From the NCBI RefSeq assembly GCF_003143775.1, contig NZ_QFRJ01000006.1, forward strand, positions 62,001 to 126,000: a stretch of DNA of 64,000 bases, given 5' to 3'. Both the position numbers and the translations under genes were made by a program. Below, piece after piece: positions 6,819 through 25,051 of this stretch. The DNA is from Brumimicrobium oceani. Lineage in GTDB: Bacteria > Bacteroidota > Bacteroidia > Flavobacteriales_D > Crocinitomicaceae. Each line of letters begins with the position of its first letter. The first letter of the stretch is position 1. Under the pieces are notes generated by a model, which had not been told where the DNA came from, did not search any database, and was given only the letters and a program-made list of their open reading frames with translations.

Positions 6819-6828
6819 AATAATATTT

Positions 6829-9324: not shown

Positions 9325-9700
9325 AGTGGCTAAAAATTTAAATTGATTTCATAATTTTCATTTTTTCGAAAATTCAAACAACACTTATCACAAGTAAATA
9401 CACTCATAATCAAATATTTGATTATTTATTTTTCATTTGAGGATTTTCAATTGGAAACATTCTCTATTAAGAATGAGACCATTTAAAAAATACCAATTAA
9501 TAAATTTAATAATTTATTTGAACATCTAATGCGTTTTTCAAATCAATCTTATGGAACAACATCATAGAATTCAGTTATAAGATCAATGATAATTTGATGG
9601 GCATTTCAGAATTATAGAATGAAAGCCGTACGTTCTTCCAAAACTATAGCCCTTTTCTATTTTGCCAAAGCTTGAAAGTCCTTCAAACACTCAGCCTTCC
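9325..9700. other. AT-rich intergenic region upstream of the GHKL operon
   Basis: About 375 bases with no convincing gene. It must hold the promoter of the leftward GHKL-ATPase-HNH operon, but I could not place a clean TAnnTTTG element. It separates the operon from the tRNA-derived repeats that begin near 9691. Confidence 0.4.
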
Positions 9701-9704
9701 CAAA

Positions 9705-9740
9705 AAGGGAAAGCTTTTACTCTTAGTGACCCCGACAGGA
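9705..9740 (-). repeat. Degenerate copy of tRNA-Arg 3' end and downstream sequence (att-like)
   Basis: These 36 bases match 9879-9914 at 35 positions. The matched part covers the last 14 bases of the tRNA-Arg gene (acceptor and T-arm side) plus 22 bases of its 3' flank. The stretch after it (9741-9765) is only loosely similar to the tRNA and would not fold. Such a 3'-end duplication is the usual scar of site-specific integration next to a tRNA gene, or a decayed tandem tRNA copy. Confidence 0.6.
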
Positions 9741-9777
9741 GTAAAGATCGCTGCATGGCTCCGAATTCCGAATAAAA

Positions 9778-9812
9778 CCTTTTCGTTCTTAAGGAACGAA
9801 AGGCCTTTTTTA
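9778..9812 (+). terminator. Rho-independent terminator-like hairpin
   Basis: A stem of about 10 pairs (CCTTTTCGTTC against GAACGAAAGG, one bulge) with a five-base loop is followed by CCTTTTTTAG on the + strand. No + strand gene ends just before it, so it is orphaned, possibly left from a lost gene. Confidence 0.55.
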
Positions 9813-9860
9813 GTTCTAATCCCCTTGAAAGCTCTATGGAGCTCTCAGATGATTTAAAAC

Positions 9861-9892
9861 TAAAAAAAGCCTTCCCTGAAGGGAAAGCTTTT
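9861..9892 (-). terminator. Terminator of tRNA-Arg
   Basis: On the - strand, downstream of the tRNA, AAGCTTTCCC and GGGAAGGCTT form a 10-pair stem (one G-U) around a TTCA loop, followed by a run of T. A near copy of the hairpin arms, with a changed loop and no T-run on this strand, lies at 9693-9714. Confidence 0.75.
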
Positions 9893-9900
9893 ATTCTTAG

Positions 9901-9974
9901 TGACCCCGACAGGATTCAAACCTGTAACCGCTGGAGCCGAAATCCAGTGCGCTATTCAGTTGCGCCACGGGGCC
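9901..9974 (-). tRNA. tRNA-Arg (anticodon UCG)
   Basis: Seventy-four bases fold as a cloverleaf on the - strand. The acceptor GGCCCCG pairs with CGGGGUC (one G-U), the D-stem is GCGC/GCGC, the anticodon stem CUGGA/UCCAG encloses loop UUUCGGC giving anticodon UCG, and the T-stem ACAGG/CCUGU encloses UUUGAAU. The discriminator is A and CCA is not encoded. UCG reads CGA-type arginine codons. A strong terminator follows. The gene's 3' end points towards the defence-like island. Confidence 0.93.
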
Positions 9975-9986
9975 TTTTTTTTGGAC

Positions 9987-10034
9987 ACGTGGGGCAACTA
10001 AATATTTTTTTAGCATTCAGTTGCGCCACATGCC
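9987..10034. repeat. Inverted and direct fragments of the tRNA-Arg 5' half
   Basis: Bases 10015-10029 are identical to 9954-9968 of the tRNA gene (15 of 15), and 9987-10003 carries the same tRNA 5' sequence in the opposite orientation with two changes. The two fragments can pair as a hairpin. They look like rearranged tRNA remnants just upstream of the intact gene. Confidence 0.55.
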
Positions 10035-10039
10035 TTTTT

Positions 10040-10755
10040 TAGGTGGTACAAAATTAGAAGAATTATCAAAACCCCACCTAATTTAATGGCATATTGATTT
10101 ATTTTTTTGCTTTACTACTTAAAAAGAAAGTCAAACGTACATTTCCAAGAACGAAATATCAAGTTAGCATTAGATTTCGAAGCTAAAAACGGAAATTCAG
10201 GCAAGCTATTTAAAGAAAAAACAACTAAACAGCTATGCAACCATACCATTTAAAAGCTCAATTTTAGAATCACACAACTTTGACTTTATAAATAGCGTAA
10301 TTATGAAAAGGCATCATTTAAATCCAGCCCGTTCCCCAAACGATAAAATAAATACAACTTACGACGAACATATGTTTTTTATCGACGAATGCACCAAAAA
10401 CTCATACCAATCGTTTTTAATGAAATTAATTTGATAAAAATTCAGTTTTTTTGAAAGAAAACATTGAACTGTCATTTTTTTTTAAAAACTAGGTAATGAA
10501 TAAGTAAAAATGATCTCTTTAGAGAAGCTTATGAACTACCTGAAGCCAATAATATCAAGCATTAAGCCGGGAAGGAAAAGCAAAAAGTGCTTCCGTTCAA
10601 AAACTTTAAATATATCAAAAATGAAGATAAAAATGCTTTACGTATTACGTAAAAACAACACAGTTAAAGGGCTTACAGGCTATTTCAAGGCAGATGACAT
10701 ATTGTTTTTCAAAACTTTATAAGTAATTTAGCAGCGAATTAAAATACCAATTATT
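10040..10755. other. Gene-poor stretch with decayed coding fragments
   Basis: About 700 bases without an intact gene. One + frame is open for 86 codons (10174-10434) without an early start. Another + frame (10506-10652) translates to protein-like sequence broken by a stop at 10563. I recognise neither. Together they suggest relics of lost genes next to the tRNA, but chance open frames in AT-rich DNA are possible. Confidence 0.35.
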
Positions 10756-11121
10756 ATGAACACATTAAAATATAACCTGTACTATTTAGAGTCACAATTT
10801 GTTGGTTATCCAGTAGTGATTCGAGTAACAGTTTTTTTAATTACCATTTTAGCAATTATATACTTGGTATCCCTTCTAAGAATATTCTTTTTGGCACGTA
10901 ATAGAACAAAAATGGATAATCGAGAAAAGGAAATTCAAAAGAAATACGAGAAAAAGCTAAAAACCATTCTGTTCTCTAATGAGAACATAACACCAGAAGA
11001 AATTAGAACTAAGCTAGGAATGAATAATGAAACACTTAAAGATTGGGAGAAAGCCTATGTTTCAAAACTCATGATAAAATTGATAAGACAGAATGAAAAA
11101 GTTGAAATGAATTCAAATTAA
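10756..11121 (+). CDS. Small membrane protein, truncated paralogue of the following HEAT-repeat protein
   Basis: A 121-residue protein whose whole length aligns with the first 120 or so residues of the next gene: shared N-x-x-Y-Y-x-E-S-x-F-x-G-Y-P start, one membrane segment (about residues 21-43), the R-I-F-F-x-A-x-N-R stop-transfer and a charged helical region. It ends where the paralogue enters its HEAT repeats. It either arose by partial duplication or acts as an independent membrane anchor. It lies 99 bases before the paralogue in the same orientation, so it may be the first gene of the exopolysaccharide operon. Confidence 0.6.
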   Translation: MNTLKYNLYYLESQFVGYPVVIRVTVFLITILAIIYLVSLLRIFFLARNRTKMDNREKEIQKKYEKKLKTILFSNENITPEEIRTKLGMNNETLKDWEKAYVSKLMIKLIRQNEKVEMNSN

Positions 11122-11220
11122 TCGTATCTTTGGTAAAGTAGCGTTTGCTCTATGCTAAGAGTAAATTCTAAAAAACAAATTACTTGTCTATTTCTTTATG
11201 CTTAGATCAATATATATTAA

Positions 11221-12363
11221 GTGAGTTCAATAAAATATTATTTCTATTATTTCGAGTCAAAGTTTATCGGCTACCCTTTCGTGATAAGAGTAACGCTGTT
11301 TCTTATAGTGCTGCTAGTCATAATCTACTTAGGCTCTATGATAAGGATTTTCTTTATTGCAAAAAACAGAAAGAAAACAGAAACGAGAAAAAAACAGATT
11401 AAAGATCAATATGAAGACAAGCTGGAAGATATACTGTTCGCCGAAAAAGATTTATCACAGCAAGAAATTAGTAATAAATTAATAAACGATAAAAACCCGG
11501 TTTTAGAATGGAGTAAACCTTACCTATCTAAGTTAATTTTAACTTTAACTAATCAAGAAATGAAATTAAACGTTAACAACTATAGAGAAACATTAAAAGC
11601 TTTTGAACTTCATGAATATTGGGAAAACCAACTGAAGAACAAAAACATTGAAGATGAAGGTACAGCGTTAAGAATTCTTGATGACATGAGTGAAGATGCC
11701 TCAAGTAATGCAATTTCAAATAAAGCAACATCACAGAACAACAATCTTCGAAAGCATGCTAAAAGTATTTTCATGAAATTTGATTCAAATGATGCTTTTA
11801 AGTTTTTAGATGATGATTTTGACAAGGATTTCAACGCCTTGGATGAAGTACGAATTCATGACGCATTAAAGGACAAATCTAAGGAAAGACCTCTGCCTCC
11901 TCTCATAAGATGGGTAAGTACAGCAGAAAATGAATTTTTCAAATCATTCCTTATACAGGAAATAGGTTACTTTAACCAAATTGATTCAGCGGATCAATTG
12001 GTCGAAATTTTCAAAGATCCAAACACAACACACAGAGTAAAAGCACAAGTAGCAAAAACATTGGGCACATTAAAATATGCTCCAGCTATCCCTTATCTAA
12101 TTGAAAATTACGGAACAAGTGTTCAAGAGGTGCAGGAAAATATAATATATGCAATGGGTGAAATAAAAAATCCTGAAACATTAGACTTTCTAGAAAAAAT
12201 ATATCACGAAACGCATAACAAAGAAACATTAATCAAAGTATTACAGAATATTTATTTAGTAGATGACAGTAAAGTTGTATTTAATAAGCTTAAAGAAGCC
12301 AGTACAACAGAGTTTGAAAAATCGATATTCGACTATATTGACCAAGGATTCTCGGTTAGGTAA
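11221..12363 (+). CDS. Membrane-anchored HEAT-repeat protein
   Basis: A 380-residue protein with one N-terminal membrane helix (about 21-43, then R-I-F-F-I-A-K-N-R), a charged linker and a C-terminal domain of alpha-alpha repeats from about residue 230. The repeats include D-P-N-T-T-H-R-V-K-A-Q-V-A and I-Y-A-M-G-E-I-K-N-P, typical of HEAT/PBS-lyase-like scaffolds. The start is GTG; I see no better ATG upstream. The domain should face the cytoplasm and could bind the adjacent membrane glycosyltransferase. The gene stands 31 bases before that glycosyltransferase, so co-transcription is likely. The precise role is not known from sequence. Confidence 0.75.
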   Translation: MSSIKYYFYYFESKFIGYPFVIRVTLFLIVLLVIIYLGSMIRIFFIAKNRKKTETRKKQIKDQYEDKLEDILFAEKDLSQQEISNKLINDKNPVLEWSKPYLSKLILTLTNQEMKLNVNNYRETLKAFELHEYWENQLKNKNIEDEGTALRILDDMSEDASSNAISNKATSQNNNLRKHAKSIFMKFDSNDAFKFLDDDFDKDFNALDEVRIHDALKDKSKERPLPPLIRWVSTAENEFFKSFLIQEIGYFNQIDSADQLVEIFKDPNTTHRVKAQVAKTLGTLKYAPAIPYLIENYGTSVQEVQENIIYAMGEIKNPETLDFLEKIYHETHNKETLIKVLQNIYLVDDSKVVFNKLKEASTTEFEKSIFDYIDQGFSVR

Positions 12364-12394
12364 TTTTACTTAATAGGGAACATAAAAAAATTAA

Positions 12395-13846
12395 ATGGAA
12401 GGTACAATTTACTTATATCAATACCTGATATTTTTCTACTCATTTCTAATGACAGTTATTTATATTAGTCTAGCTATTCTAGGTTATGTAAACATTGTTA
12501 GAAACAAAAGAAAATATACCACTAAGGAAGAAGAGGATTTACTTCTACTTCCAGAAATTGCTCCCGGCATCTCGGTGGTTGCACCTGCATATAATGAAGA
12601 GGTCATTATTATTGAAAATGTAAGGTCTTTACTTAATCTAGATTATCCAAACTTTGAAATAGTCATTGTTAATGATGGTAGTAAAGATAAAACATTAGAC
12701 TTACTAATTGAGGAGTTTGATTTAATTCCGATTCCCTTTCCTTATATTCAAAAAGTAATATGTAAACCAGTAAAAAAGATATATCGATCCTCAAACAGTA
12801 GATTTAGCAGACTTACTGTTGTAGATAAAGTGAATGGAGGTACAAAGGCAGATGCCATGAACGCTGGAATTAATGTGGCGCAATATGACTACTTCATTAA
12901 TACAGATGTAGATTGCTTGCTTGCCCGTGATACGCTTACCAAATGTATTTTGCCCGTACTGGATTCAAAAATAAGGGTTATTGCCGTGGGTGCAACGCTA
13001 AGAATGGTTAACAATTGCGAAGTAAAAGATGGTGAAATAACTAGGGTTAAACCTCCAAAAGCATTTATACCTACTTTCCAGGAAACAGAATACCTTCGCT
13101 CTTACTTACTAGCAAAGATGGGATGGTCAATGTTTAATCTTATTCCAAACGTTTCGGGCGGATTTGGTCTCTTCTACAGGCCTTTAATTATTGACGCAGG
13201 AGGTTATGATCCCTTATCACACGCCGAAGACATGGACATGACTTTGAGAATAATAGCCAACATGAAAGACAATAAGAAAAAGTATAAAATTGTTCAAATC
13301 CCTGATACTTTATGTTGGACAGAAGGACCTCCTAACATGAAGGTTCTGCAAAGACAAAGGTCTAGATGGGGACGAGGTTTATTACAAATTTTCGTTGTTC
13401 ACAGGAAATTGCTTTTCAACAGAAAGTACGGAAGAATGGGGCTGTGGGTTATGCCTTATGCATTAATTTTTGAGTTCCTAGCGCCACTAATTGAGGTGAT
13501 TGGTTTAGCCTTTATGATTTTCCTTTTATTTACTAACCAGATCAACTTCGACACTTTTTGGTTAATGTTATTCTTTGTTTATTTGCTCGGAGTAACTATT
13601 TCATTAGTGGCTATTTCATTCGACATACTTACCAAAAAACATTATCAAAGCTACACAGAATATATTAGACTCGTCATTTTTTCTTCCTTGGAAGCAGTGC
13701 TTTACCATCCACTTATTGTTGTCTTCAGTATAAATGGATATTTTCAGTTTTTAACAAGAAAAGACTTTAGCTGGGGAGCTATGACAAGACAAGGATTTAA
13801 GCAGTCTGAAACCCCAACTGTTACACAACCAGCAAACCCAGAATGA
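12395..13846 (+). CDS. Processive family 2 glycosyltransferase (polysaccharide synthase, PgaC/HasA-like)
   Basis: A 483-residue inner-membrane GT2 enzyme. One N-terminal membrane helix (about 9-34) is followed by the cytoplasmic GT-A domain with V-A-P-A-Y-N-E, D94 in V-N-D-G-S, D-V-D at 171-173, E-D at 278-279 as acceptor base, and Q-R-S-R-W at 321-325, the Q-x-x-R-W motif of processive synthases. Three or four membrane helices follow (about 352-385, 390-410, 425-445). This is the layout of PgaC, hyaluronan and cellulose synthases, which polymerise a UDP-sugar and push the chain across the membrane. Its end overlaps the TPR/barrel gene by 4 bases. The sugar cannot be told from sequence. Confidence 0.9.
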   Translation: MEGTIYLYQYLIFFYSFLMTVIYISLAILGYVNIVRNKRKYTTKEEEDLLLLPEIAPGISVVAPAYNEEVIIIENVRSLLNLDYPNFEIVIVNDGSKDKTLDLLIEEFDLIPIPFPYIQKVICKPVKKIYRSSNSRFSRLTVVDKVNGGTKADAMNAGINVAQYDYFINTDVDCLLARDTLTKCILPVLDSKIRVIAVGATLRMVNNCEVKDGEITRVKPPKAFIPTFQETEYLRSYLLAKMGWSMFNLIPNVSGGFGLFYRPLIIDAGGYDPLSHAEDMDMTLRIIANMKDNKKKYKIVQIPDTLCWTEGPPNMKVLQRQRSRWGRGLLQIFVVHRKLLFNRKYGRMGLWVMPYALIFEFLAPLIEVIGLAFMIFLLFTNQINFDTFWLMLFFVYLLGVTISLVAISFDILTKKHYQSYTEYIRLVIFSSLEAVLYHPLIVVFSINGYFQFLTRKDFSWGAMTRQGFKQSETPTVTQPANPE

Positions 13847-16677
13847 CATTTAATATTAAAATATTAACATCTAGAGTGGAAATAATAGCATCGCTAAAGC
13901 GAAACACATCCTTAGTCATGATTGTTTTGTTTTGCCATCAGTTTTCATTTGCTCAAACGGAAATAAATCTGGATGGTAGGGATAGCTATATAGAAAAAGC
14001 GATGACACAATTTGATCGCGGAAACTGGGACGAGGGAAAAAAAACTGTTGATCTAGGGCTAAAAAGATATCCTTTTGATTCAGATCTTAAAATGCTATCT
14101 GGTAAATATCACCACCACAAAGGCCAAAACGAAAAGGCAAGATATGACCTTGTAAAAGCATTACAAATCAACCCTGACAATGTTGATGCAAAACAAATAT
14201 TAGTCAACGTAGAACTAGAAACAGAGCGCTACTCCAGTGCTATTTGCTATGTAAACGAGCTCCTGGAGGTTAATCCCTATTGGAGAGGTTTGTGGCGAAA
14301 GAAAATTGAACTATACAAACTACAAGGGAATTTTGTTGAAGCGAACCGACTGCAGGAGCGTATCAGCCAAATTTATCCTGACGATAAAAAGCTAAAAGAG
14401 GACTACATTTACGCTATGGAACTCGATGCTGCTGCTAAAAGAAAAGAAGGTGACATTGATGGCGCGATTGAAATCAGTAAAAAACTACTAAAGGAAAATC
14501 CAGAAAAGGTAGAAAACTACATTCTTATGGCAAATGATTATCTTAAAGCTGGTGATCTAAACACAGCCTTAAGTTATCTTGATCGTGGTTTAAATAGCTT
14601 TCCAGAAAACAGTGAATTAATTAATAAAAAGGCAGGAGTTTTAGCACAGCAAAAAAAGTATGATGAATTACTTCCTTTCCTTCAGAAAAAAGGATATGCT
14701 CAACAGTACAGCTACTATTTGATGGAGGCTGCCCGCTATTCAAAAAATCAACAAACCCACATTTTATATGGTAAGATATTTGAAGAAAACCCGGGTAATG
14801 AAGAAGCTTTTGACAATATCTATAACTATACAGTAGCGGTTCAACAATATGATGAAGCACTGCGTCTGATTAAGGTTCAGAGAAGGGTCAATGGAGACTC
14901 AAAAGAGCTCTATCTTAAGGAACTTGCTGTGTATGAAATGATGGGAAATGATTCGAAAAGCATTGCATTAACGAAAAGACTATTTGAGCGTTACCCTAAC
15001 GATTATGATGTTCAAAATGCCTATGTGAAAGTGATCTTTGAAGAAGCAAAATACAAAATGTCTGAAAAGAGGTATGCTGAAGCTATTGACGATTGGTATA
15101 AAGTAATTCAGTATGGTGATGAAGACTATGTTTACGTTGCAAGAAATTCGATTTTTAATGCGCACGTGGAACTCGGAGAATACCTGGATGCACTTAACGT
15201 GCTTAATGAGCTGATTGCAAACGACAAGGACAACAAGGACTTCTATTTGAAAAGAGCAGACTTATACTACAGGCAAAAGAACTTCAATATGGCACTTTCT
15301 GCTTACGAAAACATTTTAGATCAAACTGAAGGGAATCAGCGAAATAGATTTCTATCTGGTTATGGAAATTTATCAACACTCATCATTAAAGATTTAGTTG
15401 AAGTATTCCGATATGATCAAGCACTGCAATATGCAGAAAGATGGCTAGAACAGGACCCTAAAAATGAATTGGCTTTGCGATATGCTATTAACTTATCCTA
15501 CCAAACAAATAGCCTTGAAAAAGCTTATTTATACGCAGAAAGTGGAAACCGTGCGCATCCAAATAGTACTTTCTTCATTGTAAAAATGGCGGAAATTACG
15601 GCTGAAAACCCAGAAAACTACGAAGAAGTATACAATTTACTGCTAGAAAAAGTAAGTGCTGACCCCTATAATCAAGATTTAATAAATGCTTATGCGCAAA
15701 TTACAGAAGATTATAGTCACCAACTTATTCGTGGTGAAAGAAGTCCTGATGCCATTGAAAATTTGGATAATGCTTTGCGTTATGCCCCAAATAACAATAC
15801 ACTCAAGTACACAAAAGGAATAGCCTACGAGAAAATTAAAAATTATGATTCGGCCTATTATTATCAATCATTTTATGTGCCATCACCACAAGAAGAAAAG
15901 CAGTTTAATCACTATTTATACTATTTATATTACAAAAGTTTAGACAACGAAATTGGACTACATCATTTGCGAAGTCGACCAGGAGACATTGATGTCATCA
16001 ATCCCATATCAGCCATTAGCTATAGTCACATCGACAATAATAACACGTATTCTGGAAGAATAAATTATGCGGGACGACCACCAGGAAAAGGATACCAAAT
16101 TCAAGCGGCTTGGATGCGGGAATGGAACTACAAAACCACAACATTAATTGATGCTGCTTGGGCAAATCAATTTTTCCCTACAATAAGTATAAATGCATCT
16201 ATTTTTAGAGATATTACCAAGCTAAAAGAGGTGAATCTTGAATTGGGAATTGGATACAGAATCCTTGATACGGTGAGCAGTAATGCCAATTTAGGCAATA
16301 GAAATATGTTTAATTTCGTTGTTGGAGCTACTAAAGTAATTGATGATTTTAGAATTAACGCCAGGTTGAACAATTTTATTTTAGATGGGCGCTACCTTTA
16401 TAATCTGACAGTAAACGGAAGATACACACTTTGGTCTCCTAAGCACTATGTCACCGCAATGGCAGGTGTTGGTTCCTCACCAGATGTTGAGCTTCTAGAT
16501 TATCAAGTTTACGATGGCTTCTCGGCACTAAACACAATGGTAGGCGCTGGATTCACCTACATGTTTGCAAAAAATGTTTCTTTCGGAGTATTAGGAACTT
16601 GGTACAATTATAGAAACAATGACGGAATTTACAGAAATCATCACAATATATTCTTGAACTTAAATGTTGCTTTTTAA
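13843..16677 (+). CDS. TPR protein with C-terminal YaiO-like outer-membrane beta-barrel
   Basis: A 944-residue secreted protein. After a long basic N-terminus and a hydrophobic stretch ending in F-S-F-A-Q (about residues 24-38) come many TPR-like helical repeats to about residue 690. The last 220 residues are alternating aromatic strands ending in F-L-N-L-N-V-A-F, the C-terminal phenylalanine typical of outer-membrane barrels; they resemble the YaiO barrel family. TPR plus barrel in one chain is also the plan of PgaA, which guides and exports PNAG. Between a GT2 synthase (4-base overlap) and a DUF4838 lipoprotein (14-base overlap), it is most likely the periplasmic guide and outer-membrane exporter of the polymer. 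Confidence 0.85.
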   Translation: MTFNIKILTSRVEIIASLKRNTSLVMIVLFCHQFSFAQTEINLDGRDSYIEKAMTQFDRGNWDEGKKTVDLGLKRYPFDSDLKMLSGKYHHHKGQNEKARYDLVKALQINPDNVDAKQILVNVELETERYSSAICYVNELLEVNPYWRGLWRKKIELYKLQGNFVEANRLQERISQIYPDDKKLKEDYIYAMELDAAAKRKEGDIDGAIEISKKLLKENPEKVENYILMANDYLKAGDLNTALSYLDRGLNSFPENSELINKKAGVLAQQKKYDELLPFLQKKGYAQQYSYYLMEAARYSKNQQTHILYGKIFEENPGNEEAFDNIYNYTVAVQQYDEALRLIKVQRRVNGDSKELYLKELAVYEMMGNDSKSIALTKRLFERYPNDYDVQNAYVKVIFEEAKYKMSEKRYAEAIDDWYKVIQYGDEDYVYVARNSIFNAHVELGEYLDALNVLNELIANDKDNKDFYLKRADLYYRQKNFNMALSAYENILDQTEGNQRNRFLSGYGNLSTLIIKDLVEVFRYDQALQYAERWLEQDPKNELALRYAINLSYQTNSLEKAYLYAESGNRAHPNSTFFIVKMAEITAENPENYEEVYNLLLEKVSADPYNQDLINAYAQITEDYSHQLIRGERSPDAIENLDNALRYAPNNNTLKYTKGIAYEKIKNYDSAYYYQSFYVPSPQEEKQFNHYLYYLYYKSLDNEIGLHHLRSRPGDIDVINPISAISYSHIDNNNTYSGRINYAGRPPGKGYQIQAAWMREWNYKTTTLIDAAWANQFFPTISINASIFRDITKLKEVNLELGIGYRILDTVSSNANLGNRNMFNFVVGATKVIDDFRINARLNNFILDGRYLYNLTVNGRYTLWSPKHYVTAMAGVGSSPDVELLDYQVYDGFSALNTMVGAGFTYMFAKNVSFGVLGTWYNYRNNDGIYRNHHNIFLNLNVAF

Positions 16678-18805
16678 CAAACATATCATTCTATTTTTAA
16701 TTTTGATGACGTCGACTTTTAGTTGCTCTGCAAAAAACAATTTGGGTTTAAAAGCTGAAAAATATGTTATCTATGCCAGCGCAAATCAAGACAGTAAGTA
16801 TTTAGCGCAAATCGCCCTTGATCAATTACAGAAGCATACAAACCAAAAAGACATCATTAGCTTAATTAATGATAACGAAATAAAAAACAATAAGCAGAAA
16901 TACATCCAATTCTTAGTTGAACAGAGTGCCAAAGACGATTATTGCATTGTTCATGACTCCGATAAACTTATAATTACGGTTAGAAAAAAAGCCGATGGAA
17001 TATGGATGATTCATCAACTAATAGAAGAAATAGGCAAAACTGACAACAGATTTAGCACGATCGACTTACCTCCATCAACAATCAAATTCATCACTCAATG
17101 TGAAAATTTTGATTTTGACTATAGAGACCCCCATTATTCAAACAACCTTATCCCAGGTAATGCACTCATTTTAGGAAACAACAATGTAGATCTTGATTGG
17201 GGAATTTGGGGGCATAACATCAAGAAGGTGATTGGTGAAATAAATGATTCTACAATATTTGCTCTTATAGATGAAAAACGTGTGAAAGAACAATTTTCTT
17301 TTAGTTCGCCTGTGTTGTTAGAACACCTAACACAATATATTTTAAACTATTTCGGGAATGGTGATGAAAAAGCATACCACTTCATGATTATGCCAAGAGA
17401 TAATAATCTGGTTTGCCTGTGCGAAGAATGTAAAAAATTAGGCAATACAAAAAACAACGCAACACCAGCAGTCACTTATTTCATTCAAAAAATGGCGGCT
17501 AGATTCCCAAAACACCAGTTTTTCACCTCTTCTTACAATTCCACAAAAGCAATTCCGAAGGATACACTGAGAGAAAATACTGGAGCTTTTTTAAGTACAA
17601 TACTCTTAAAAAAGGGTGTAGAATTAAATTTAAAGCAAGCGAAAACCGCAAAATTTGTTGAGGAACTAAAAGCCTGGCGAGACATTACACCTAATATTTA
17701 CGTTTGGGATTACTCGGCAAACTTCGATGACTACCTCACTCCTATTCCCGTATTGTACAGTTTGCAAAAACAACTTCAGTTTTATAAAAGTCAAGAAGTA
17801 AAAGGAGTATTTCTTAACGCTAGTGGATATGACTACTCCACATTTGGAGATTTAAAATCCTTTGTTTCTGGTGCCCTATTAAAAAATACAAATGCTGATA
17901 TAGATCAACTGTGTACGAGCTTCTTTCAGAAATATTACCCAAAGAACCACCAACTTTTAAGTAATTACTATTTGTCATTAGAAAAAAGTTTTGCCCTAAA
18001 AAACCAAAGCTATAATTTATATGGAGGCTTCGATGAAATAACAAATACCTATTTGGATACAGAGGCTTTTTTAGAGTTTTACAACGCGCTAGAGAAAGTT
18101 TTACGACAAACAACGGGAGCAGAAAAGGAAAGACTTTTAATGTTATACACCGCTCTATCCTATACCAAATTACAAATCGCCTATCACCAAGTTACAGGAA
18201 AAAATGGGTGCATGACTATTGATGAATTTGAATTAAAATTAAATCCCGCAATAAACCAAACAATTGAAATACTAAACAATTCATCACGCTATTCTGATTT
18301 GAATAAGTATAAGGAAGCCCATGGCGAAATACAACAGTATATTGATTTTTGGAAAAACGAAATCATCAATCAGAAGCTTGAAAACGAAATTATACAGGAA
18401 AAAATCACAATTTTATCTGCACCAGATTCAGAATTTGAAAATTCAAAAAAACTAAACAATGGTTTACCTGGCTATTCAAAAGACTATCATCAAGGTTGGT
18501 ATATTAGCAGTAAAGACCTAAAAATAGAATTCCCAACAAACAAAATAAGTGGTACAAAAAAGATGAAATTTCGTTTTCTAAATAATGAAAGACACGGTTT
18601 TTATCCACCAGAGAAGATTGAAATATGGTCCAAGGACATACTCCTTAAAACAATTAACAATTTTGATAGCTCATCTGCTTTGGAGTCTGTAGAATTTAAT
18701 TTAACTTTAGACTTAACTAATACAGATAAAGTGAAAGTTCTATTCTTTAGAAAATCACTCAGCAATAGCAAAATCGCCATAGACGAAGTACGCGTATTAA
18801 ATTAA
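16664..18805 (+). CDS. DUF4838-domain lipoprotein, putative carbohydrate-active enzyme
   Basis: A 713-residue protein with a lipoprotein signal (T-F-S-C21), so membrane-anchored after export. The body matches the DUF4838 family as I remember it: an N-terminal alpha-glucuronidase-like domain, then W-G-I-W-G-H and C-L-C-E-E-C motifs around residues 180-265 and a conserved Y-V-W-D-Y-S-A-N-F-D stretch near 345. The last 130 residues look like a beta-sandwich. DUF4838 proteins are related to glycoside hydrolases and common in polysaccharide loci of Bacteroidota. Its 14-base overlap with the barrel gene suggests it trims, modifies or holds the exported polymer, the place PgaB takes in PNAG systems; that is an inference. 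Confidence 0.75.
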   Translation: MLLFNKHIILFLILMTSTFSCSAKNNLGLKAEKYVIYASANQDSKYLAQIALDQLQKHTNQKDIISLINDNEIKNNKQKYIQFLVEQSAKDDYCIVHDSDKLIITVRKKADGIWMIHQLIEEIGKTDNRFSTIDLPPSTIKFITQCENFDFDYRDPHYSNNLIPGNALILGNNNVDLDWGIWGHNIKKVIGEINDSTIFALIDEKRVKEQFSFSSPVLLEHLTQYILNYFGNGDEKAYHFMIMPRDNNLVCLCEECKKLGNTKNNATPAVTYFIQKMAARFPKHQFFTSSYNSTKAIPKDTLRENTGAFLSTILLKKGVELNLKQAKTAKFVEELKAWRDITPNIYVWDYSANFDDYLTPIPVLYSLQKQLQFYKSQEVKGVFLNASGYDYSTFGDLKSFVSGALLKNTNADIDQLCTSFFQKYYPKNHQLLSNYYLSLEKSFALKNQSYNLYGGFDEITNTYLDTEAFLEFYNALEKVLRQTTGAEKERLLMLYTALSYTKLQIAYHQVTGKNGCMTIDEFELKLNPAINQTIEILNNSSRYSDLNKYKEAHGEIQQYIDFWKNEIINQKLENEIIQEKITILSAPDSEFENSKKLNNGLPGYSKDYHQGWYISSKDLKIEFPTNKISGTKKMKFRFLNNERHGFYPPEKIEIWSKDILLKTINNFDSSSALESVEFNLTLDLTNTDKVKVLFFRKSLSNSKIAIDEVRVLN

Positions 18806-18810
18806 TTTTC

Positions 18811-19332
18811 ATGAACAGTTTTATTAATATCCTTATTGCAATTGTGTTGATTGTATCTTTGAGTGGCTGTGATGACCTTTCTGAAAGTAACACTACCTTG
18901 GAGATTGTTGACAATGGAAGACACTATTACCCGATTTTAAGAGGTCAGGATTTAGATGTCGTTTTCACAATTAGAAACACAGGATCAAAGCCTTTTGTAC
19001 TCAACGACATGCTGATCACTTGTGGGTGTATTGTGCCAAAAAAATCTTCAATTCGGTCGATTCCTGCGGGAAAAGAGGGAAAGTTACATCTTATTTACAA
19101 CAGCAATAAAAACATTGGCTTCGTGGAGCACCATGTAGATATTTATGGAAATTTAAAAGACAAAGATAAAGTAACCCTTGTTTTCGATGTGAATGTTGTA
19201 CCTGAAGGGCTTTACACAAAGGATTATGAAGAACTTCACAAAGAAGAACGAGAAAAAGCAGGTGTTGACTTTGAAGGAATGGTAGATGGAGAGGAAAACA
19301 ATAAAGGGTTTTATATGGATGAAGATTTTTAG
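18811..19332 (+). CDS. DUF1573 lipoprotein
   Basis: A 173-residue lipoprotein (signal ending S-L-S-G-C20) with an Ig-like DUF1573 domain: F-T-I-R-N-T-G-S-K-P-F, then the characteristic C-G-C in I-T-C-G-C-I-V-P, and a G-x-x-G-x-L-x-L-x-Y strand. The tail is very acidic. DUF1573 proteins are frequent in Bacteroidota and have no assigned activity. It begins 5 bases after the DUF4838 gene, so it is the last member of this operon; no clear terminator follows. Confidence 0.8.
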   Translation: MNSFINILIAIVLIVSLSGCDDLSESNTTLEIVDNGRHYYPILRGQDLDVVFTIRNTGSKPFVLNDMLITCGCIVPKKSSIRSIPAGKEGKLHLIYNSNKNIGFVEHHVDIYGNLKDKDKVTLVFDVNVVPEGLYTKDYEELHKEEREKAGVDFEGMVDGEENNKGFYMDEDF

Positions 19333-19715
19333 AATTTTGAACAAGCGCAATCCTACCAGTTATGCTTTATATCTAATCAACTGAAATTCTGAAATTTTTT
19401 AAGGTTTAAATAATTTGTAATAATCTAAAAGAGTTACCTCAGTTACTGCATTCCATAGAATAAGAGATAATTTATAGTATTAATTTGGGAAAGTTGATGA
19501 TTATTTCGAGAACATACAGTATCGAAGAGTTCTCCCTCATCCAACTGAGCCCTTCTTTTCTTGGATGGAAAAATGATTGGCAGCTCATATTCAAATTAAC
19601 CTCACTGGTTTTAGTAAAGGATTAAATTGGGATTATTCTGAACTTTAAGTGGCATCCATTTAAATAATATCTATCTTAGTGCTTGATGCCTGTCTAACAA
19701 AACAAGATAAACTGA
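19333..19715. other. Intergenic region between exopolysaccharide operon and regulators
   Basis: About 380 bases with no gene. A weak 7-pair inverted repeat (CATCCAA at 19539, TTGGATG at 19562) is the only structure I see. The promoter of the following regulator should lie here, but I cannot place it. Confidence 0.4.
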
Positions 19716-21284
19716 ATGATAAAAACTATTTTCGTACTATTATTAACCCTTTTCAGTTTTCGCTCTATTGCTCAAAATCCATACTATGACAGTATTTATA
19801 GAGTTACGGCTCAAGAATTAATTGCATCTGATCCAAAACAAGCCCTAAAAAATGTTGAGCAACTTTCCTCCATTTCAACAAACAGAGCAGAACAGTTAAA
19901 GTCTTTGCTTTTAAAAGCTGCCTTACTAAGAACTTATGGTATAAACAATGAGGCCTTAGACATTTTATTTAAGACAGATAGTATTGCTCATCTCGAGAAA
20001 GACTATGTTTCTATAACAAGAATAAATGGTTTAATAGCGACCATATATCGCGAGTCGCAGCTTAATGCAGCAGCCACGATTTATTTCAAAAAGACCAAAG
20101 AGGCAATAGAAAAAATAGAAAATGAAAATCTAAAAAATCGATTTAGAGGCAGCATTGAGCAAGAATCAGCTCAAATCGAACTCAAAAAAGAAAATTACTT
20201 AAAAACAATTAAGCACATAAATCAATCGAATGAATATTTTCTCTTGGCAGGAGAAACAGCTGATATCCCCTTTCATTTATCCTCTAACTACGGACAAATA
20301 GGCACAGTTTACTTACTGCTTGATGAGATTGATTCCACCTTCTTTTACCTCAATAGGGCACTGAATGAATTAACAAAGGCACAAGCGGCAAACAGCCCCA
20401 AAAAAGGGTTTATATATACAGGGCTTGCCGAAGCCTATATAAAAATTGACTCTTTAGAATTAGCCGAAGATTACCTTCACAAATCCAAGAGTATTGCTGA
20501 AAAATCAAATTATTTTGAGTTAAAGAAAGAGACCTACTTCAAGCTGAGTAACTTTTACAAGAAAACTGGAGACCATGATAAGTTCATTCAAAGCAATGAG
20601 CAATACCTTAAACTAATTAATGATGATCAAGAAGAAAAGAAACGCATATCCAATTTACTTATTGAAAGTCTTTATGAAAAAGAACAAAACTCAATAACTA
20701 AACAGCGTTCTAGTTCAAAAAAAATTACGCTATTAACAAGCTCTGTGTTTCTATTGATCATTCTATTGGGCTGGTATATTTACAGCAAAAGGCAAAGTAA
20801 AAAGAAGTTTTTAGCCTATATTGAAAATAAAAACAATTACGAAAACAAAGCAAAAGATCCGAGCCCAGAAAAGCCAACTGCTGCTCCTGAAACGAAGAGC
20901 AAAAGCTATATGTCGGAAGAAAAAGAGACTGAAATTCTTAAAAAGTTACTTGAAATTGAGAAAACCAATTTTTACTTAGACGAGAATATCTCTCTAAGCA
21001 CTTTGTCAGGTAAATTAGGTGTCAACCAAAGGTATTTAACCCACGTGATTAAAACACACAAAAAATCCGATTTCTCATCCTATATTAACGCCTTGAGAAT
21101 AAACTATATCGTAGATTGCATAAAAAGTGACCCCAAATTTCTAATGTATAAAATAAGTTACCTCGCAGAGCTTTGTGGGTTTGCTTCTCACAGCAGGTTT
21201 TCAATTAACTTTAAGAAAGTTACAGGTACTACTCCTTCGGCTTTCATTGCCTATGTCAAGAACGAAAACGAAAAAATAAATTAA
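19716..21284 (+). CDS. TPR-transmembrane-AraC family transcriptional regulator (copy 1)
   Basis: A 522-residue one-protein signalling regulator. It has a signal-like N-terminus (ends S-I-A-Q), helical TPR-like repeats over residues 30-330 that should face the periplasm, one membrane helix (about 341-360, L-L-T-S-S-V-F-L-L-I-I-L-L-G-W-Y-I-Y), a charged linker and a C-terminal AraC-type double helix-turn-helix (about 405-515) with the family ending C-G-F-A-S-H-S-R-F-S...G-T-T-P-S-A-F. It senses something outside the inner membrane and binds DNA inside. The next gene is a close paralogue. Both sit just after the exopolysaccharide operon and may control it. Confidence 0.88.
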   Translation: MIKTIFVLLLTLFSFRSIAQNPYYDSIYRVTAQELIASDPKQALKNVEQLSSISTNRAEQLKSLLLKAALLRTYGINNEALDILFKTDSIAHLEKDYVSITRINGLIATIYRESQLNAAATIYFKKTKEAIEKIENENLKNRFRGSIEQESAQIELKKENYLKTIKHINQSNEYFLLAGETADIPFHLSSNYGQIGTVYLLLDEIDSTFFYLNRALNELTKAQAANSPKKGFIYTGLAEAYIKIDSLELAEDYLHKSKSIAEKSNYFELKKETYFKLSNFYKKTGDHDKFIQSNEQYLKLINDDQEEKKRISNLLIESLYEKEQNSITKQRSSSKKITLLTSSVFLLIILLGWYIYSKRQSKKKFLAYIENKNNYENKAKDPSPEKPTAAPETKSKSYMSEEKETEILKKLLEIEKTNFYLDENISLSTLSGKLGVNQRYLTHVIKTHKKSDFSSYINALRINYIVDCIKSDPKFLMYKISYLAELCGFASHSRFSINFKKVTGTTPSAFIAYVKNENEKIN

Positions 21285-21302
21285 TTTCCTAAATAATTTG
21301 TG

Positions 21303-21310: not shown

Positions 21311-21389
21311 CATTGAGCATCAATTGAATTGACCTCAAGTAGTGAATGTTATATTTCGCTACAAACAAAAACTATAACTTTTAGATTCA

Positions 21390-22988
21390 ATGCACATTAA
21401 TAGAATTTCATTCTTTATGAAATCCGTAATGATCCTTCTACTATCCTTCACGATAGTCTTTCCTGTTACATCTCAAAAAGCAAACTATGACAGTTTGTAT
21501 TTATCCATAACAAGAAAACTTCCCCAAACAGAACCTGAAGAATCTCTTAAAAATGTAGACTTCCTTTACAGTATTTCTAAAAATGATCAAGAAAAGATAA
21601 GGTCACTGATTCTAAAGGCAGGATTTCTAAATTACTATGGATTAAACGAAGAGGCCTATCCCATTTTCTTAGCGGCTGAAAAAATAGCGCAAAAAAATGA
21701 GGACTATATTTCTCTTACAAGAATTTATGGCTACATTTCATCTATACATCGCGAATCTGAATTGTTTACGTCAGCCTTAAAGTACCTGGAAAAAGCCAGC
21801 CTCGCAAGCGGAAAGATTGAAGACAAAGATGTAGGTTTTAGGTTTAAGGCCAATCTAGAACAAGAGAAAGCCAATGTTTTTTTTGAAAAGGCTAAGCATC
21901 TTGAATCGATTAAACATGCCCGAAAATCACTCGATTACTTATCTCGATTATCTGCCAATAAACTTTTTGATAAAAACTATCATTCTGTCATTAGTAACGG
22001 AATTATATTCAGAAACTATTTAGCGTTGAACGAAATCGATTCTTCCTTTTACTATCTGGAGCAAGCCCAAAAAAGCTATGACAAATCAAATGGAGCGGAT
22101 CCAACGATGCAAGGCTCTATTTTCAACGGATATGGTCAAGCCAATAGGGTAATCAAAAACTATGACAAAGCAGAACATTTTTTTCTACAAGCAAAAGAAA
22201 TAGCAGATGAAACCAATTTTTTCTCTCTAAAGCAAGAGGTCTACGAATCGCTTTCTGCATTCTATAAAGAACTAGGAGCGAATGAAAAGTTCATGACAAT
22301 CAATGAAGAATACCTCTACATGATAAATCAAGACAAGGAGTCCCGCGAGCAGGTGGCAGAAAAGCTACTTAGCTCTCTTTATGCCCAACAATTAATTGCC
22401 GATAAAAACGTAAAAAGCAAGTCAAAAACCATACTCTATTTAACATTACTTTCTTTTTTCCTCGCTGCGGTACTGTCTTGGTACATATACAACAAAAAGC
22501 AAAACAAAAAGAAGTTTGAAGCCTATATCAACAGTATGAATAATCCCCTCCAACAAGAAAGGAAAGAGATTACACTAGAACCAGAAAGCAAGAAGAGTTA
22601 CATCTCGAAGGAAAAAGAAAAGAGTATTATTGATGCATTAAAGGAGCTGGAAGAAAAACAATTCTACTTGGATCAGAATATTTCTTTAACTAATTTATCT
22701 TCTCAAGTAGGCGTTAACCAACGTTACCTGACCTATGTCATAAAAAAGAAACTGGACGCAGACTTCGCATCCTATGTCAATAAATTAAGAATCGATTACA
22801 TTGTTAATTGCATTAAAACAGATCCTCAATATCTAAATTACAAGATAAGCTATTTGGCCTCAGAATGCGGGTTTTCTTCGCACAGCAGGTTTTCAATAAA
22901 CTTCAAGAAAGTTACAGGAACAACCCCTTCTGCCTTTATTAATTTCGTGAAAGAAGAAATGGCTGATAACAATAATAAATCCGCTTAA
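21390..22988 (+). CDS. TPR-transmembrane-AraC family transcriptional regulator (copy 2)
   Basis: A 532-residue paralogue of the preceding regulator, with the same order: signal peptide (ends V-T-S-Q), TPR-like helices (about 35-335), one membrane helix (I-L-Y-L-T-L-L-S-F-F-L-A-A-V-L-S-W-Y-I-Y) and an AraC-type DNA-binding domain. The DNA-binding halves are nearly interchangeable (N-Q-R-Y-L-T...C-G-F-S-S-H-S-R-F-S-I-N-F-K-K-V-T-G-T-T-P-S-A-F split by short gaps), while the sensor halves have diverged. That implies shared target sites but different signals. A second ATG at 21417 would align better with copy 1's start. The gene converges on the response-regulator gene 12 bases away, without a visible terminator. 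Confidence 0.88.
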   Translation: MHINRISFFMKSVMILLLSFTIVFPVTSQKANYDSLYLSITRKLPQTEPEESLKNVDFLYSISKNDQEKIRSLILKAGFLNYYGLNEEAYPIFLAAEKIAQKNEDYISLTRIYGYISSIHRESELFTSALKYLEKASLASGKIEDKDVGFRFKANLEQEKANVFFEKAKHLESIKHARKSLDYLSRLSANKLFDKNYHSVISNGIIFRNYLALNEIDSSFYYLEQAQKSYDKSNGADPTMQGSIFNGYGQANRVIKNYDKAEHFFLQAKEIADETNFFSLKQEVYESLSAFYKELGANEKFMTINEEYLYMINQDKESREQVAEKLLSSLYAQQLIADKNVKSKSKTILYLTLLSFFLAAVLSWYIYNKKQNKKKFEAYINSMNNPLQQERKEITLEPESKKSYISKEKEKSIIDALKELEEKQFYLDQNISLTNLSSQVGVNQRYLTYVIKKKLDADFASYVNKLRIDYIVNCIKTDPQYLNYKISYLASECGFSSHSRFSINFKKVTGTTPSAFINFVKEEMADNNNKSA

Positions 22989-23000: not shown

Positions 23001-23696
23001 TTAGTTATTTTGTTCAAGGTTAAGTTTAAATCCAATTCCATGAATATTTTCAATAACAACTGTGGGATCGCTGGCAATATATTTTCTTAATTTAGTTATA
23101 AAAACATCCAAACTTCGGCCTACAAAATAATCATCTTTCCCCCAAACAGCGTTGAGCACCATTTCCCTTGCGACCACTTGGTTTTGAAACTTAGCTAGGA
23201 TTTTCAAAATTTGTGCTTCTTTCTTTGTGAGCTTTTTTTCAGAATCAGGTCCAGTTAGCGTGAAATTAGAAATATCAAAAACAAAATGTCCAATCTGCAC
23301 TTCATTTTCGTTTTCTTTCCCAATGTGTATATCAACTCGCTTCATCAAGGCACGCACCCTAACTTTTAGTTCTTCGGTGCTAAACGGTTTAGTTAAATAA
23401 TCATCTCCTCCAACATTAAACCCTTTAACCTTATCTTCTGTCATGGCTTTTGCAGTAAGAAATAAAATAGGGATATTCTTATTAATTTTTCGAACATCTT
23501 CGGCCAAGCTAAAGCCGTCCTTTTTGGGCATCATGACATCAAAAATACACATATCAAAATGCTCTTCATTAAAGCGCTTAAAACCTTCCATTCCATCGGA
23601 CGAAAGTGCGACTTCATAGCCTTGCATTTTCAACTGATCGGAAATTATAAATCCCAAATTTGTGTCGTCTTCTACTAATAATATCTTAGGTTTCAT
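23001..23696 (-). CDS. OmpR/PhoB-family response regulator (RprY-like)
   Basis: A 231-residue two-component regulator. The receiver domain begins M-K-P-K-I-L-L-V-E-D-D, with phosphoacceptor D53 in C-I-F-D-V-M-M-P and the conserved lysine in Y-L-T-K-P-F-S. The C-terminal winged helix has the T-K-K-E-A-Q-I-L and V-W-G-K-D-D-Y-F-V-G-R-S-L-D-V pattern seen in the Bacteroides RprY group. I chose the ATG at 23696 over an upstream TTG (23726), which would overlap the kinase gene. It is 5 bases downstream of its kinase and is the 3' gene of the pair. Confidence 0.92.
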   Translation of the reverse strand: MKPKILLVEDDTNLGFIISDQLKMQGYEVALSSDGMEGFKRFNEEHFDMCIFDVMMPKKDGFSLAEDVRKINKNIPILFLTAKAMTEDKVKGFNVGGDDYLTKPFSTEELKVRVRALMKRVDIHIGKENENEVQIGHFVFDISNFTLTGPDSEKKLTKKEAQILKILAKFQNQVVAREMVLNAVWGKDDYFVGRSLDVFITKLRKYIASDPTVVIENIHGIGFKLNLEQNN

Positions 23697-23701
23697 ATCT
23701 C

Positions 23702-25051
23702 TTAATTTGTAATTGTGGGAATCCAAAAAGAAAAGGTACTTCCGTATCCTACTCTACTTTTCACATTCATTTTACCACCATGTTTATCTATAATTAATTT
23801 CACATAGTACAAGCCTAAACCGAATCCTTTCACATCGTGACGATCTCCCGTAGGAACACGATAAAACTTTTCAAACACTTGTTTTAACTGTTCTTTTTCA
23901 ATTCCAATTCCCTTGTCTTCTATGCTCACTTCAATTCCTTTACTTCTATTTTTTGAACTTACTTTAATTTTTGCAGCTTGTTCAGAATATTTCACCGCGT
24001 TGTCTAAAAGATTTAAAATTACGTTTGTAATATGAACTAAATCTACGTTTACAACGAAATCTTGCGCTGTCAAATCCAACTCTATTTCTCCCCCTGAAAA
24101 AGTTTGGTTGAACCTGTAATTGTCTGCTGTTTCCTCAATCAGTTCATGCATATCTACATGCTCCAAGCGCAATTCGAGCTTATTTCTATCCAATTTAGCC
24201 ATGTTTAATACACGCTCAACCTGCTCTTCTAAACGTTTATTCTCCTTATAAATTACCTCAGCATATCTTTTTAATTTCTCTGGTTCCTGAGTAAAATCAT
24301 TCATCATTAACATCTCACTCGATAAACCTATGGTTGAAATAGGTGTTTTTAATTCGTGAGTCATGTTATTTACAAAATCAGCTTTCACCTCAGAAATTCT
24401 CTTTTGTCGGATGATTACAGAGACTGAGAAAGCAAAGAAAATAAGAAGCACCCCAACTATAATTGCTACATACAACCAAGGAGAACTGGCTACATTTAAG
24501 TCATTACTGGGTTGTGATAATAATTCGGGGAAGAAAACAGTAAAATAATGTCCATCTCTCTTCCATAACAATTCTGGAGAAGTTACTCCAATAGCGCTAT
24601 CAGAGACAGGTGCGTATAAGGAATCAATTGAAAAACGTATTAAATTTCCATAAACTATACTGTCGTTGAAACAATCATAAATTCCGTATTGAAAATCTTG
24701 TGTAATATTGTGTTCATAAAACGTACGTTTTAGGAGTTGCTCGAGGTAATAGGGATGTAAATCCTCGTTGATGTCCACCAAAAAATAGTTTGAACTCTTC
24801 TGTTTCACAGCTCCATATAAGAAAGAGCTATCCACATGCTGAGAACCAATCTCTTCAACTGTATTCCTCAATGCAACACGAACAGACTCTTCAAATTGGC
24901 GAATATTTAAACTGTCTTGACGCTCTTGAATTGTTACCGCGTCTTTTTGGGCTTTGATGGTTCTGTTGATCCAAAAAACTTGTACCATCAAAATACTGAT
25001 AATCGATAAAACTCCGATTATTATAACAGCATTAATGGTCCTTCTATTCAT
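23702..25051 (-). CDS. Two-component sensor histidine kinase (RprX-like)
   Basis: A 449-residue membrane kinase. Membrane helices at about 9-28 and 192-214 enclose a periplasmic domain of about 160 residues. The dimerisation motif F-V-N-N-M-T-H232-E-L-K-T-P is followed by the N-box N-L-L-D-N-A-V-K-Y, D-K-G-I-G-I and G-F-G-L-G-L-Y-Y-V. The layout and partner resemble RprX/RprY of Bacteroides. It is cotranscribed with the regulator immediately downstream. What it senses is not visible. Confidence 0.92.
   Translation of the reverse strand: MNRRTINAVIIIGVLSIISILMVQVFWINRTIKAQKDAVTIQERQDSLNIRQFEESVRVALRNTVEEIGSQHVDSSFLYGAVKQKSSNYFLVDINEDLHPYYLEQLLKRTFYEHNITQDFQYGIYDCFNDSIVYGNLIRFSIDSLYAPVSDSAIGVTSPELLWKRDGHYFTVFFPELLSQPSNDLNVASSPWLYVAIIVGVLLIFFAFSVSVIIRQKRISEVKADFVNNMTHELKTPISTIGLSSEMLMMNDFTQEPEKLKRYAEVIYKENKRLEEQVERVLNMAKLDRNKLELRLEHVDMHELIEETADNYRFNQTFSGGEIELDLTAQDFVVNVDLVHITNVILNLLDNAVKYSEQAAKIKVSSKNRSKGIEVSIEDKGIGIEKEQLKQVFEKFYRVPTGDRHDVKGFGLGLYYVKLIIDKHGGKMNVKSRVGYGSTFSFWIPTITN

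Follow-up and report, generated by a model that had tools for sequence, protein, structure and literature searches.

A 12 kb cassette (10756-22988) in the window, as we call the whole stretch of 64,000 nucleotides of Brumimicrobium oceani DNA analysed here, on balance probably encodes a synthase-dependent exopolysaccharide system, in which a membrane HEAT protein would act as partner of the synthase and a GH163-type DUF4838 lipoprotein would trim the beta-polymer. This polymer probably contains HexNAc. Relatives of the gene set are found across Bacteroidota.

Gene content and borders of the cassette

The cassette consists of five genes, joined by a short paralogue of HEAT and a pair of TPR-HTH regulators (Table 1). 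A frame check of the window returned the five genes as a sequence-only reading had given them, at 11221-19332 and all on the plus strand, and Pfam scores bore out their families: a membrane protein with HEAT repeats, a GT2 of processive type, a long TPR protein ending in a YaiO-family barrel, and two lipoproteins (DUF4838, then DUF1573), in this order. The GT2 gene overlaps the TPR-barrel gene by 4 bases and the latter overlaps the DUF4838 gene by 14, with gaps of 31 bases between HEAT and GT2 and of 5 bases between DUF4838 and DUF1573. The family of the barrel, the borders at 10756 and 22988, and the response regulators and sulfatase-fold enzymes of sister loci are additions to that reading.

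Table 1. Features of the cassette and of its two borders (positions in the window)
Feature	Coordinates	Strand	Basis or remark
tRNA-Arg(TCG), left border	9900..9974	-	
Short HEAT paralogue, 121 aa	10756..11121	+	Matches HEAT N-terminal part: membrane segment and next ~80 residues
HEAT-repeat membrane protein, GTG start, 380 aa	11221..12363	+	HEAT_2 match
GT2 synthase, 483 aa	12395..13846	+	Glycos_transf_2 match, motifs, hydrophobic segments
TPR superhelix and C-terminal YaiO-family barrel, 944 aa	13843..16677	+	TPR_19 and YaiO barrel matches
DUF4838 (GH163-type) lipoprotein, 713 aa	16664..18805	+	DUF4838 match; proposed polymer-trimming glycosidase
DUF1573 lipoprotein, 173 aa	18811..19332	+	DUF1573 match; LSGC read by eye
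TPR-HTH_18 (AraC-type) regulator	19716..21284	+	Pfam match
Second TPR-HTH_18 regulator	21390..22988	+	Pfam match
Response regulator/histidine kinase pair, right border	23001..25051	-	

The short paralogue has a hydrophobic segment at residues 20-38 and lacks HEAT repeats; it is also present in the sister loci L007 (69%) and L008 (57%). Of the two regulators, the first has a signal-like start and a central hydrophobic stretch, both read by eye, and is probably a membrane one-component regulator; TPR-HTH genes occur in 5/7 of the DUF1573-type loci. The DUF1573 protein itself (55.9 bits, over the Pfam cut-off) is restricted to the branch of the window among 65 loci. Since the histidine kinase at the right border is present in all ten genomes of the genus, it probably belongs to the core genome. 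The cassette is present in three of the ten, and its site is empty in five of the remaining seven.

Proposed synthase and exporter compared with known systems

The GT2 scores 71.9 bits with Glycos_transf_2 (over the Pfam cut-off), has hydrophobic segments at 11-35 and within 348-444, and carries the motifs N93-D94-G-S-x-D98, D144-K145...K151-A-D, D171-x-D173, E278-D279 and Q321-R-x-R-W325, each of them kept in 90% or more of the 65 relatives compared. It is therefore a membrane GT2 with the processive motif set, as expected of synthase-dependent exopolysaccharide systems, although such motifs are also known in enzymes whose products are not exported. The second expected component, a TPR/outer-membrane barrel exporter, is found in the same operon (the barrel by family), which supports the export plan of the sequence-only reading. 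In the exporter, TPR_19 scores 117.9 bits and the YaiO barrel PF19413 scores 43.8 bits against a cut-off of 23.9. The structure model predicts a TPR superhelix of some 17 helix pairs at about residues 44-665, with pLDDT mostly 70-90, and lacks confidence in the barrel part, which is assigned by its family match. By hhalign the barrel profile matches YaiO with 85% and PgaA with 0.3% probability; a plain HMM search with the same profile at E 10 left YaiO, PgaA and BcsC all unmatched, so it is Pfam and hhalign that connect the barrel with YaiO. The match to the PgaA porin TIGR03939 covers the TPR part only (29.7 bits, cut-off 366.65). Hence the PgaA plan proposed earlier holds for the architecture and fails for the barrel.

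Like E. coli pgaABCD (PMC9384988), the operon follows a plan of membrane GT2 and partner, periplasmic hydrolase and TPR-barrel exporter; it differs in having a HEAT protein instead of PgaD, a barrel of another family, and neither domain of PgaB (deacetylase and GHL13 hydrolase), the place of the periplasmic hydrolase being occupied by DUF4838, as had been read. It could be argued that this is merely a divergent PNAG system, whose GT2 makes poly-beta-1,6-GlcNAc, with HEAT replacing PgaD and DUF4838 replacing PgaB. We consider this unlikely. PgaC is indeed the nearest of three E. coli GT2s (121.7 bits, as opposed to 57.1 for YaiP and 31.4 for BcsA), the PgaC/IcaA equivalog TIGR03937 is the best NCBIfam match, and a Bacteroides GH163 is reported to remove GlcNAc-containing antennae in endo fashion (PMC10154615). 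However, the TIGR03937 match reaches 118.2 bits where the cut-off is 422.3, the barrel is unlike PgaA, no deacetylase match lies in the operon and no GHL13 match in the genome (the E. coli control was positive), and a separate PgaC-like GT2 (159.6 bits) stands elsewhere in the genome beside a weak deacetylase match. Altogether, four deacetylase-domain matches lie elsewhere in the genome, outside the operon. These results agree with the earlier suggestion of a polymer other than PNAG.

Cellulose synthesis offers a looser parallel. E. coli bcs shares the GT2 synthase, the long TPR-barrel and a periplasmic hydrolase (BcsZ), and its phosphoethanolamine transferase BcsG is reminiscent of the sulfatase-fold enzyme found at sister loci; on the other hand, the operon of the window has no BcsB-like or PilZ match, its barrel is unlike BcsC, and its GT2 scores 41.1 bits with the UDP-forming cellulose synthase TIGR03030 (cut-off 699.1). 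The nearest known layout is that of E. coli yaiS-yaiP-yaiX-yaiO, to our knowledge uncharacterised, which combines a GT2 (YaiP, hhalign 98.9%) with a YaiO-family barrel; it differs in having a PIG-L deacetylase and a putative acyltransferase, with no TPR, HEAT or DUF4838 gene annotated. In MG1655, yaiX is interrupted by IS2.

The DUF4838 lipoprotein: trimming or foraging

The DUF4838 protein scores 122.6 bits with PF16126 (cut-off 26.6). It shares with the Bacteroides GH163/DUF4838 enzymes of N-glycan degradation the Pfam family and the family-wide invariant residues, the GH163 label itself coming from a relative (PMC9870897); it differs from them in its synthesis-type operon, its own branch and 15 changed positions. 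In an alignment of 28 rows, 17 positions are invariant in all and Asp349 is kept in 27, while in the branch of the window 15 positions are wholly or mostly changed where the other 21 rows are at least 85% conserved. Identity with L007 is 61% for DUF4838 versus 88% for the GT2, meaning that DUF4838 diverges faster. To judge from these changes, the window-branch enzymes may have a different substrate, or weakened activity. The putative lipidation Cys, followed by eye in 16 rows, aligns in the seven DUF1573-type loci and L048 and does not in the other eight.

The folds nearest to the structure model are those of GH115, GH84, GH20 and GH67 glycosidases. The model is mediocre (4 rows, mean pLDDT 60.6, global TM-scores at most 0.29), and its fold lists held no GH163-labelled entry, which excludes nothing. 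Against the PDB, sequence comparison gave nothing useful and a profile search gave weak GH20/GH115 matches. A GH84-type Asp-Asp pair at positions 246-247 was rejected as a family-wide feature, since D-N is found there in 7/7 window-branch and 10/12 unlinked rows; D-D is found in 8/9 of the other linked rows.

DUF4838 matches occur in 25 of 395 Bacteroidota genomes and in 13 of these lie no more than about 6 kb from a GT2 of the family, in a ranking biased by a profile made from 16 linked proteins, with at most two candidates scored per genome. All 16 DUF4838-linked GT2s fall within one supported set of 20 (98/92), and the linked DUF4838s separate from 12 unlinked ones at 92/89, which together would suit a single recruitment followed by occasional losses. 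L007, L008 and L010 share the 14-base overlap with the barrel gene, which is thus seen in four genomes including that of the window; L010 keeps it even though its DUF4838 has just 33% identity to that of the window.

An alternative, which we consider equally unlikely as PNAG, is that DUF4838 is a foraging enzyme that happens to stand beside a polymer operon responding to algal glycans, and that trimming the cell's own polymer is not its job. Unlinked DUF4838 genes are indeed often in glycan-degrading surroundings (glycosidases make up 6/10 neighbouring proteins at 8 of 12 loci). In addition, Polaribacter in algal co-culture raised MED152_03905 (GT2) 8.8-fold and MED152_03915 (DUF4838/GH163) 18.5-fold, two genes that lie one gene apart by their tags and rise together; the study interprets the response as a way of reaching N-acetylglucosamine, and lists marine Bacteroidota DUF4838/GH163 among catabolic CAZymes (PMC9870897). 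Against foraging speak the linkage in 13 of the 25 genomes, the single GT2 set, the overlap kept in four genomes, and the lack of glycosidases among flanking proteins of linked genes (0/10, at 8 of 16 loci). Marine Bacteroidota DUF4838/GH163 genes may in part serve polymer synthesis.

The HEAT protein as proposed partner, possible signalling and the wider family

The HEAT protein (HEAT_2, 51.3 bits, 1.5e-13, over the Pfam cut-off) has one hydrophobic segment at 20-38, a basic stretch and C-terminal HEAT repeats, and its 380-aa frame aligns along the whole length in two sister species. We propose it as the partner or adaptor of the synthase, with its repeats presumably on the cytoplasmic side. 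A single-domain response regulator lies at most five genes from 50 of 65 GT2s, with the phospho-accepting Asp in 46/50 and the Lys in 50/50. As genes for response regulators are common, their proximity to the GT2 does not by itself prove contact. In the branch of the window this regulator is gone and the two TPR-HTH regulators are found instead.

A usual switch in the PNAG, cellulose, alginate and Pel systems, where synthase-dependent export has mainly been worked out, is c-di-GMP. In PNAG synthesis it acts with PgaD-PgaC (PMC7112194). No GGDEF match was found in the genome of the window or in 9/10 genomes of the genus, the tenth having one.

On the reading preferred here, the system would work as follows. 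The GT2, judging by its motifs and membrane segments, would build the polymer from a nucleotide sugar within the inner membrane and move it into the periplasm. Its constant partner would be the HEAT protein, anchored next to it with the repeats on the cytoplasmic side; in most relatives, linkage suggests that the HEAT protein relays a phospho-signal from the single-domain response regulator to the synthase, filling the role of c-di-GMP binding in known systems. By analogy with PgaA/BcsC, the long TPR superhelix would guide the chain to the YaiO-type barrel. DUF4838 would then clip the beta-polymer, probably one with N-acetylhexosamine, freeing jams or setting length, much as the PgaB hydrolase domain or BcsZ possibly do. 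In the branch of the window, the two TPR-HTH regulators would control transcription.

More tentatively, there might be a Bacteroidota-wide class of polysaccharide synthases controlled by protein phosphorylation instead of c-di-GMP, from single-domain response regulator through an obligatory HEAT adaptor to GT2, into which lineages plug differing periplasmic finishing enzymes (an LtaS/OpgB-like phospho-transferase, which some of them fuse to the synthase, or else a glycosidase of GH163 type taken over from glycan foraging) and so make different polymers.

The family GT2 was detected in 74 of the 395 sampled genomes, and 58 of 83 non-window GT2 matches were read with their surroundings. A six-frame check around 65 loci found HEAT in 65, the barrel in 53, DUF4838 in 16 and DUF1573 in 7; the linkage in relatives expected by the sequence-only reading thus holds for HEAT and barrel and mostly fails for the two lipoproteins, so that the full five-gene set marks one branch of a wider family. 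Mechanical gene calling (longest frames, overlaps removed) gave some wrong starts, such as 341 instead of 380 aa for the window HEAT, and overlapping frames hid the GT2 and HEAT of L104 and the HEAT of L098, which the six-frame check recovered; counts based on called genes (HEAT 64 and barrel 51 within 4 genes, per 65 GT2s) are for this reason small underestimates. Motif, tree and neighbour counts use 65 GT2s from 64 of these loci, since L054 has two and L104 is missing.

Least likely of all is that no polymer is made, the GT2 glycosylating a lipid or surface protein with one sugar only, beside generic HEAT and TPR scaffolds: many GT2s do act so, and 12/65 loci have no barrel match within the stretch read, but the QxxRW motif with the full processive set, the several C-terminal hydrophobic segments and the barrel in 53/65 loci all speak against it.

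Among the literature matches listed, with subscription journals and preprints outside the search, the operon is undescribed except for the two Polaribacter genes tabulated in PMC9870897, and the main text of a survey of synthase operons (PMC7112194) has 0 occurrences of 'bacteroid' and 'flavobacter'. As a possible relative that has been studied, we looked at Flavobacterium psychrophilum FpgA and rejected it, its cloned fragment being about 1.1 kb and paired with a WbhW-like gene (PMC4293000). With its GT2 in 74 of the 395 genomes, and here in a genus where 9/10 genomes lack a GGDEF match, the GT2-HEAT-YaiO family suggests a matrix system that is still unexplored and has another switch.

A single-domain response regulator, a sulfatase-fold enzyme or both are present in many relatives. 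Among called genes, the sulfatase-fold enzyme lies near 19/65 GT2s, a single L054 gene being counted for two of them, and within 4 genes 33/65 GT2s have neither DUF4838 nor a sulfatase-fold enzyme; neither enzyme is thus essential to the family. The two occur together in two true cases, L060 and L061.

Core genes, their family and its possible control

The sequence-only reading had proposed a new synthase-dependent exopolysaccharide export system for a polymer other than PNAG, and its five frames (table) stand at the positions it gave and in the families it named, as checked by frames and family profiles. The layout of this operon matches the synthase-dependent export plan, in which the polymer and the enzyme of the periplasm are both bound by TPR proteins (PMC9384988, available text). 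On the features tested the operon belongs to neither Pga nor Bcs; it shares the GT2+YaiO pair with the E. coli yai locus. The YaiO family profile matches the barrel at 43.8 bits (cut-off 23.9), and hhalign of the barrel gives 84.9% for E. coli YaiO, 0.3% for PgaA and 0.1% for BcsC; in an ordinary HMM search, that barrel profile matched none of the three. In the structure model the TPR part forms a long superhelix of about 17 helix pairs, the barrel part being of low confidence.

Features of the window and their positions
Feature	Position	Remark
SspC- and SspD-like genes	218-3752	PADLOC, 949.6 and 300.2 bits
PDC-M62A/B pair	3830-9324	PADLOC candidate defence system; 3' side of tRNA-Arg
Short HEAT paralogue	10756-11121	5' of core genes; retained in two sister species
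HEAT	11221-12363 (+)	
GT2	12395-13846 (+)	
TPR-barrel	13843-16677 (+)	
DUF4838	16664-18805 (+)	
DUF1573	18811-19332 (+)	
Two TPR-HTH_18 regulators	19716-21284, 21390-22988	3' of core genes; family profile match

The GT2 is 89% and 81% identical to those of two Brumimicrobium contigs, which places the genome near this genus. A scan at E <= 1e-90 found relatives of this GT2 in 74 genomes out of 395 Bacteroidota sampled. Across 65 loci (57 regions from that scan, three from a genus search, four further loci and the window), a six-frame search found HEAT at every locus, the barrel at 53, DUF4838 at 16 and DUF1573 at seven. We rate HEAT+GT2+YaiO as a family in its own right, to which the window's branch (the seven loci with DUF1573) adds DUF4838, DUF1573, the long TPR part and the TPR-HTH regulators. 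Among called genes around the 65 GT2s, a sulfatase-fold enzyme (PF00884) lies within four genes of 19, its closest NCBIfam models being LtaS and OpgB at scores far under cut-off, and 33 GT2s have neither this enzyme nor DUF4838. At six loci (L057, L060, L061, L068, L074, L075) the GT2 and an LtaS/OpgB-like sulfatase-fold domain are fused in one protein of 1144-1270 aa. A family of eight proteins of about 390 aa recurs beside sister systems (L066, L068, L072, L074, L078 and others); its member L066:6614-7798 has no match in Pfam or NCBIfam.

GT2 enzymes are inverting, so the polymer that this GT2 would assemble is expected to be beta-linked. It may contain HexNAc, given the GH163 activity described in the available text of PMC10154615 and the likeness of the GT2 to PgaC.

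By the same gene calls, a single-domain response regulator lies within five genes of 50 of the 65 GT2s, with the Asp kept in 46/50 and the Lys in 50/50; it is absent from all seven DUF1573 loci, five of which have TPR-HTH regulators. HEAT could act as a signal adaptor. Control by c-di-GMP is unlikely here, since a GGDEF search found no match in the organism's own genome and a match in one of ten genomes of the genus.

DUF4838 near and away from the GT2

DUF4838 (E <= 1e-20) occurs in 25 of the 395 genomes; 13 of these have it near a family GT2, at a distance of up to about 6 kb, and the other 12 do not. The 16 DUF4838-linked GT2s fall within one set of 20 in the GT2 tree (support 98/92), where linkage requires five changes, against 14.5 when shuffled. 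In the DUF4838 tree linked and unlinked proteins split at 92/89, less than full support, and the seven proteins of the window's branch form one set (100/100). Ten proteins neighbouring unlinked DUF4838 (from eight of the 12 unlinked loci) include six glycosidases of GH29, GH38, GH92 and GH94 types, at five loci, and one protein with a TonB-receptor plug; the remaining three loci have a transporter in two and no match in one. None of ten proteins flanking linked DUF4838 (eight of 16 loci) is a glycosidase.

Seventeen positions are invariant in the 28-row alignment, including R154, H184, D246, C253, C256, Y291, N305, W338, W348, Y350, Y425, Y435 and E551, and D349 is kept in 27 rows. Fifteen positions at least 85% conserved in the other 21 rows are wholly or mostly changed in the window's branch, some conservatively. 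The folds closest to the DUF4838 model are GH115, GH84, GH20 and GH67 glycosidases, with a weak global fit. DUF4838 may trim the predicted polymer.

In Polaribacter dokdonensis co-cultured with Micromonas, the available text of PMC9870897 reports MED152_03905 (GT2) up 8.8-fold and MED152_03915 (DUF4838, GH163) up 18.5-fold; its authors place a GT2 and the GH163 outside PULs. Judging by locus tags and protein numbers (WP_015480551, WP_015480553), a single gene separates the two, a spacing shared by the linked loci of our sample, and this gene is presumably the barrel gene.

Against a sister-species stretch (L007), DUF4838 is 61% identical and the GT2 88%, with HEAT, GT2, TPR-barrel and DUF1573 spanning 73-88%; DUF4838 thus diverges faster, at about the rate of the TPR-HTH regulators (best pairs 66% and 55%).

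The cassette, its site and other loci

The unit is a 12-kb cassette; both in the window and in the two sister species, a tRNA-Arg(TCG) gene adjoins it. The right-flank kinase is present in all ten genomes of the genus, the GT2 in three. From tRNA-Arg to the kinase-side regulator gene there are 13 kb in the window and about 0.8-1.3 kb in five of the seven GT2-less genomes, so the cassette was gained or lost as one block; of the other two, one contig ends too early and one has no tRNA-Arg within the stretch read. Sphingobacterium arenae (L010) has nearly the same gene order, with a GT2 of 61% identity, and, to judge from sequence, the cassette has probably been transferred between families. The TPR-HTH regulators and those of the nearest sister (L126:1350-4652) form their best pairs in swapped order.

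Left of tRNA-Arg, the Ssp-like genes read as a phosphorothioation-type defence locus; the SspC match begins at profile position 265, so either the edge of the window or the choice of start truncates this gene. The PDC-M62A/B pair, adjoined by an 831-aa gene with no PADLOC match, likely marks a defence island.

Elsewhere in the genome (C1:4000-23500, L133), a second synthase-like locus at 7384-15457 holds a PgaC-like GT2 (159.6 bits), a TackOD1 protein, an HlyD-type adaptor, a 696-aa protein that matches no family and a protein with a T9SS tail and a weak match to deacetylases. At C30:242213 and C30:268542, 26 kb apart, two deacetylase matches score identically, perhaps through duplication.
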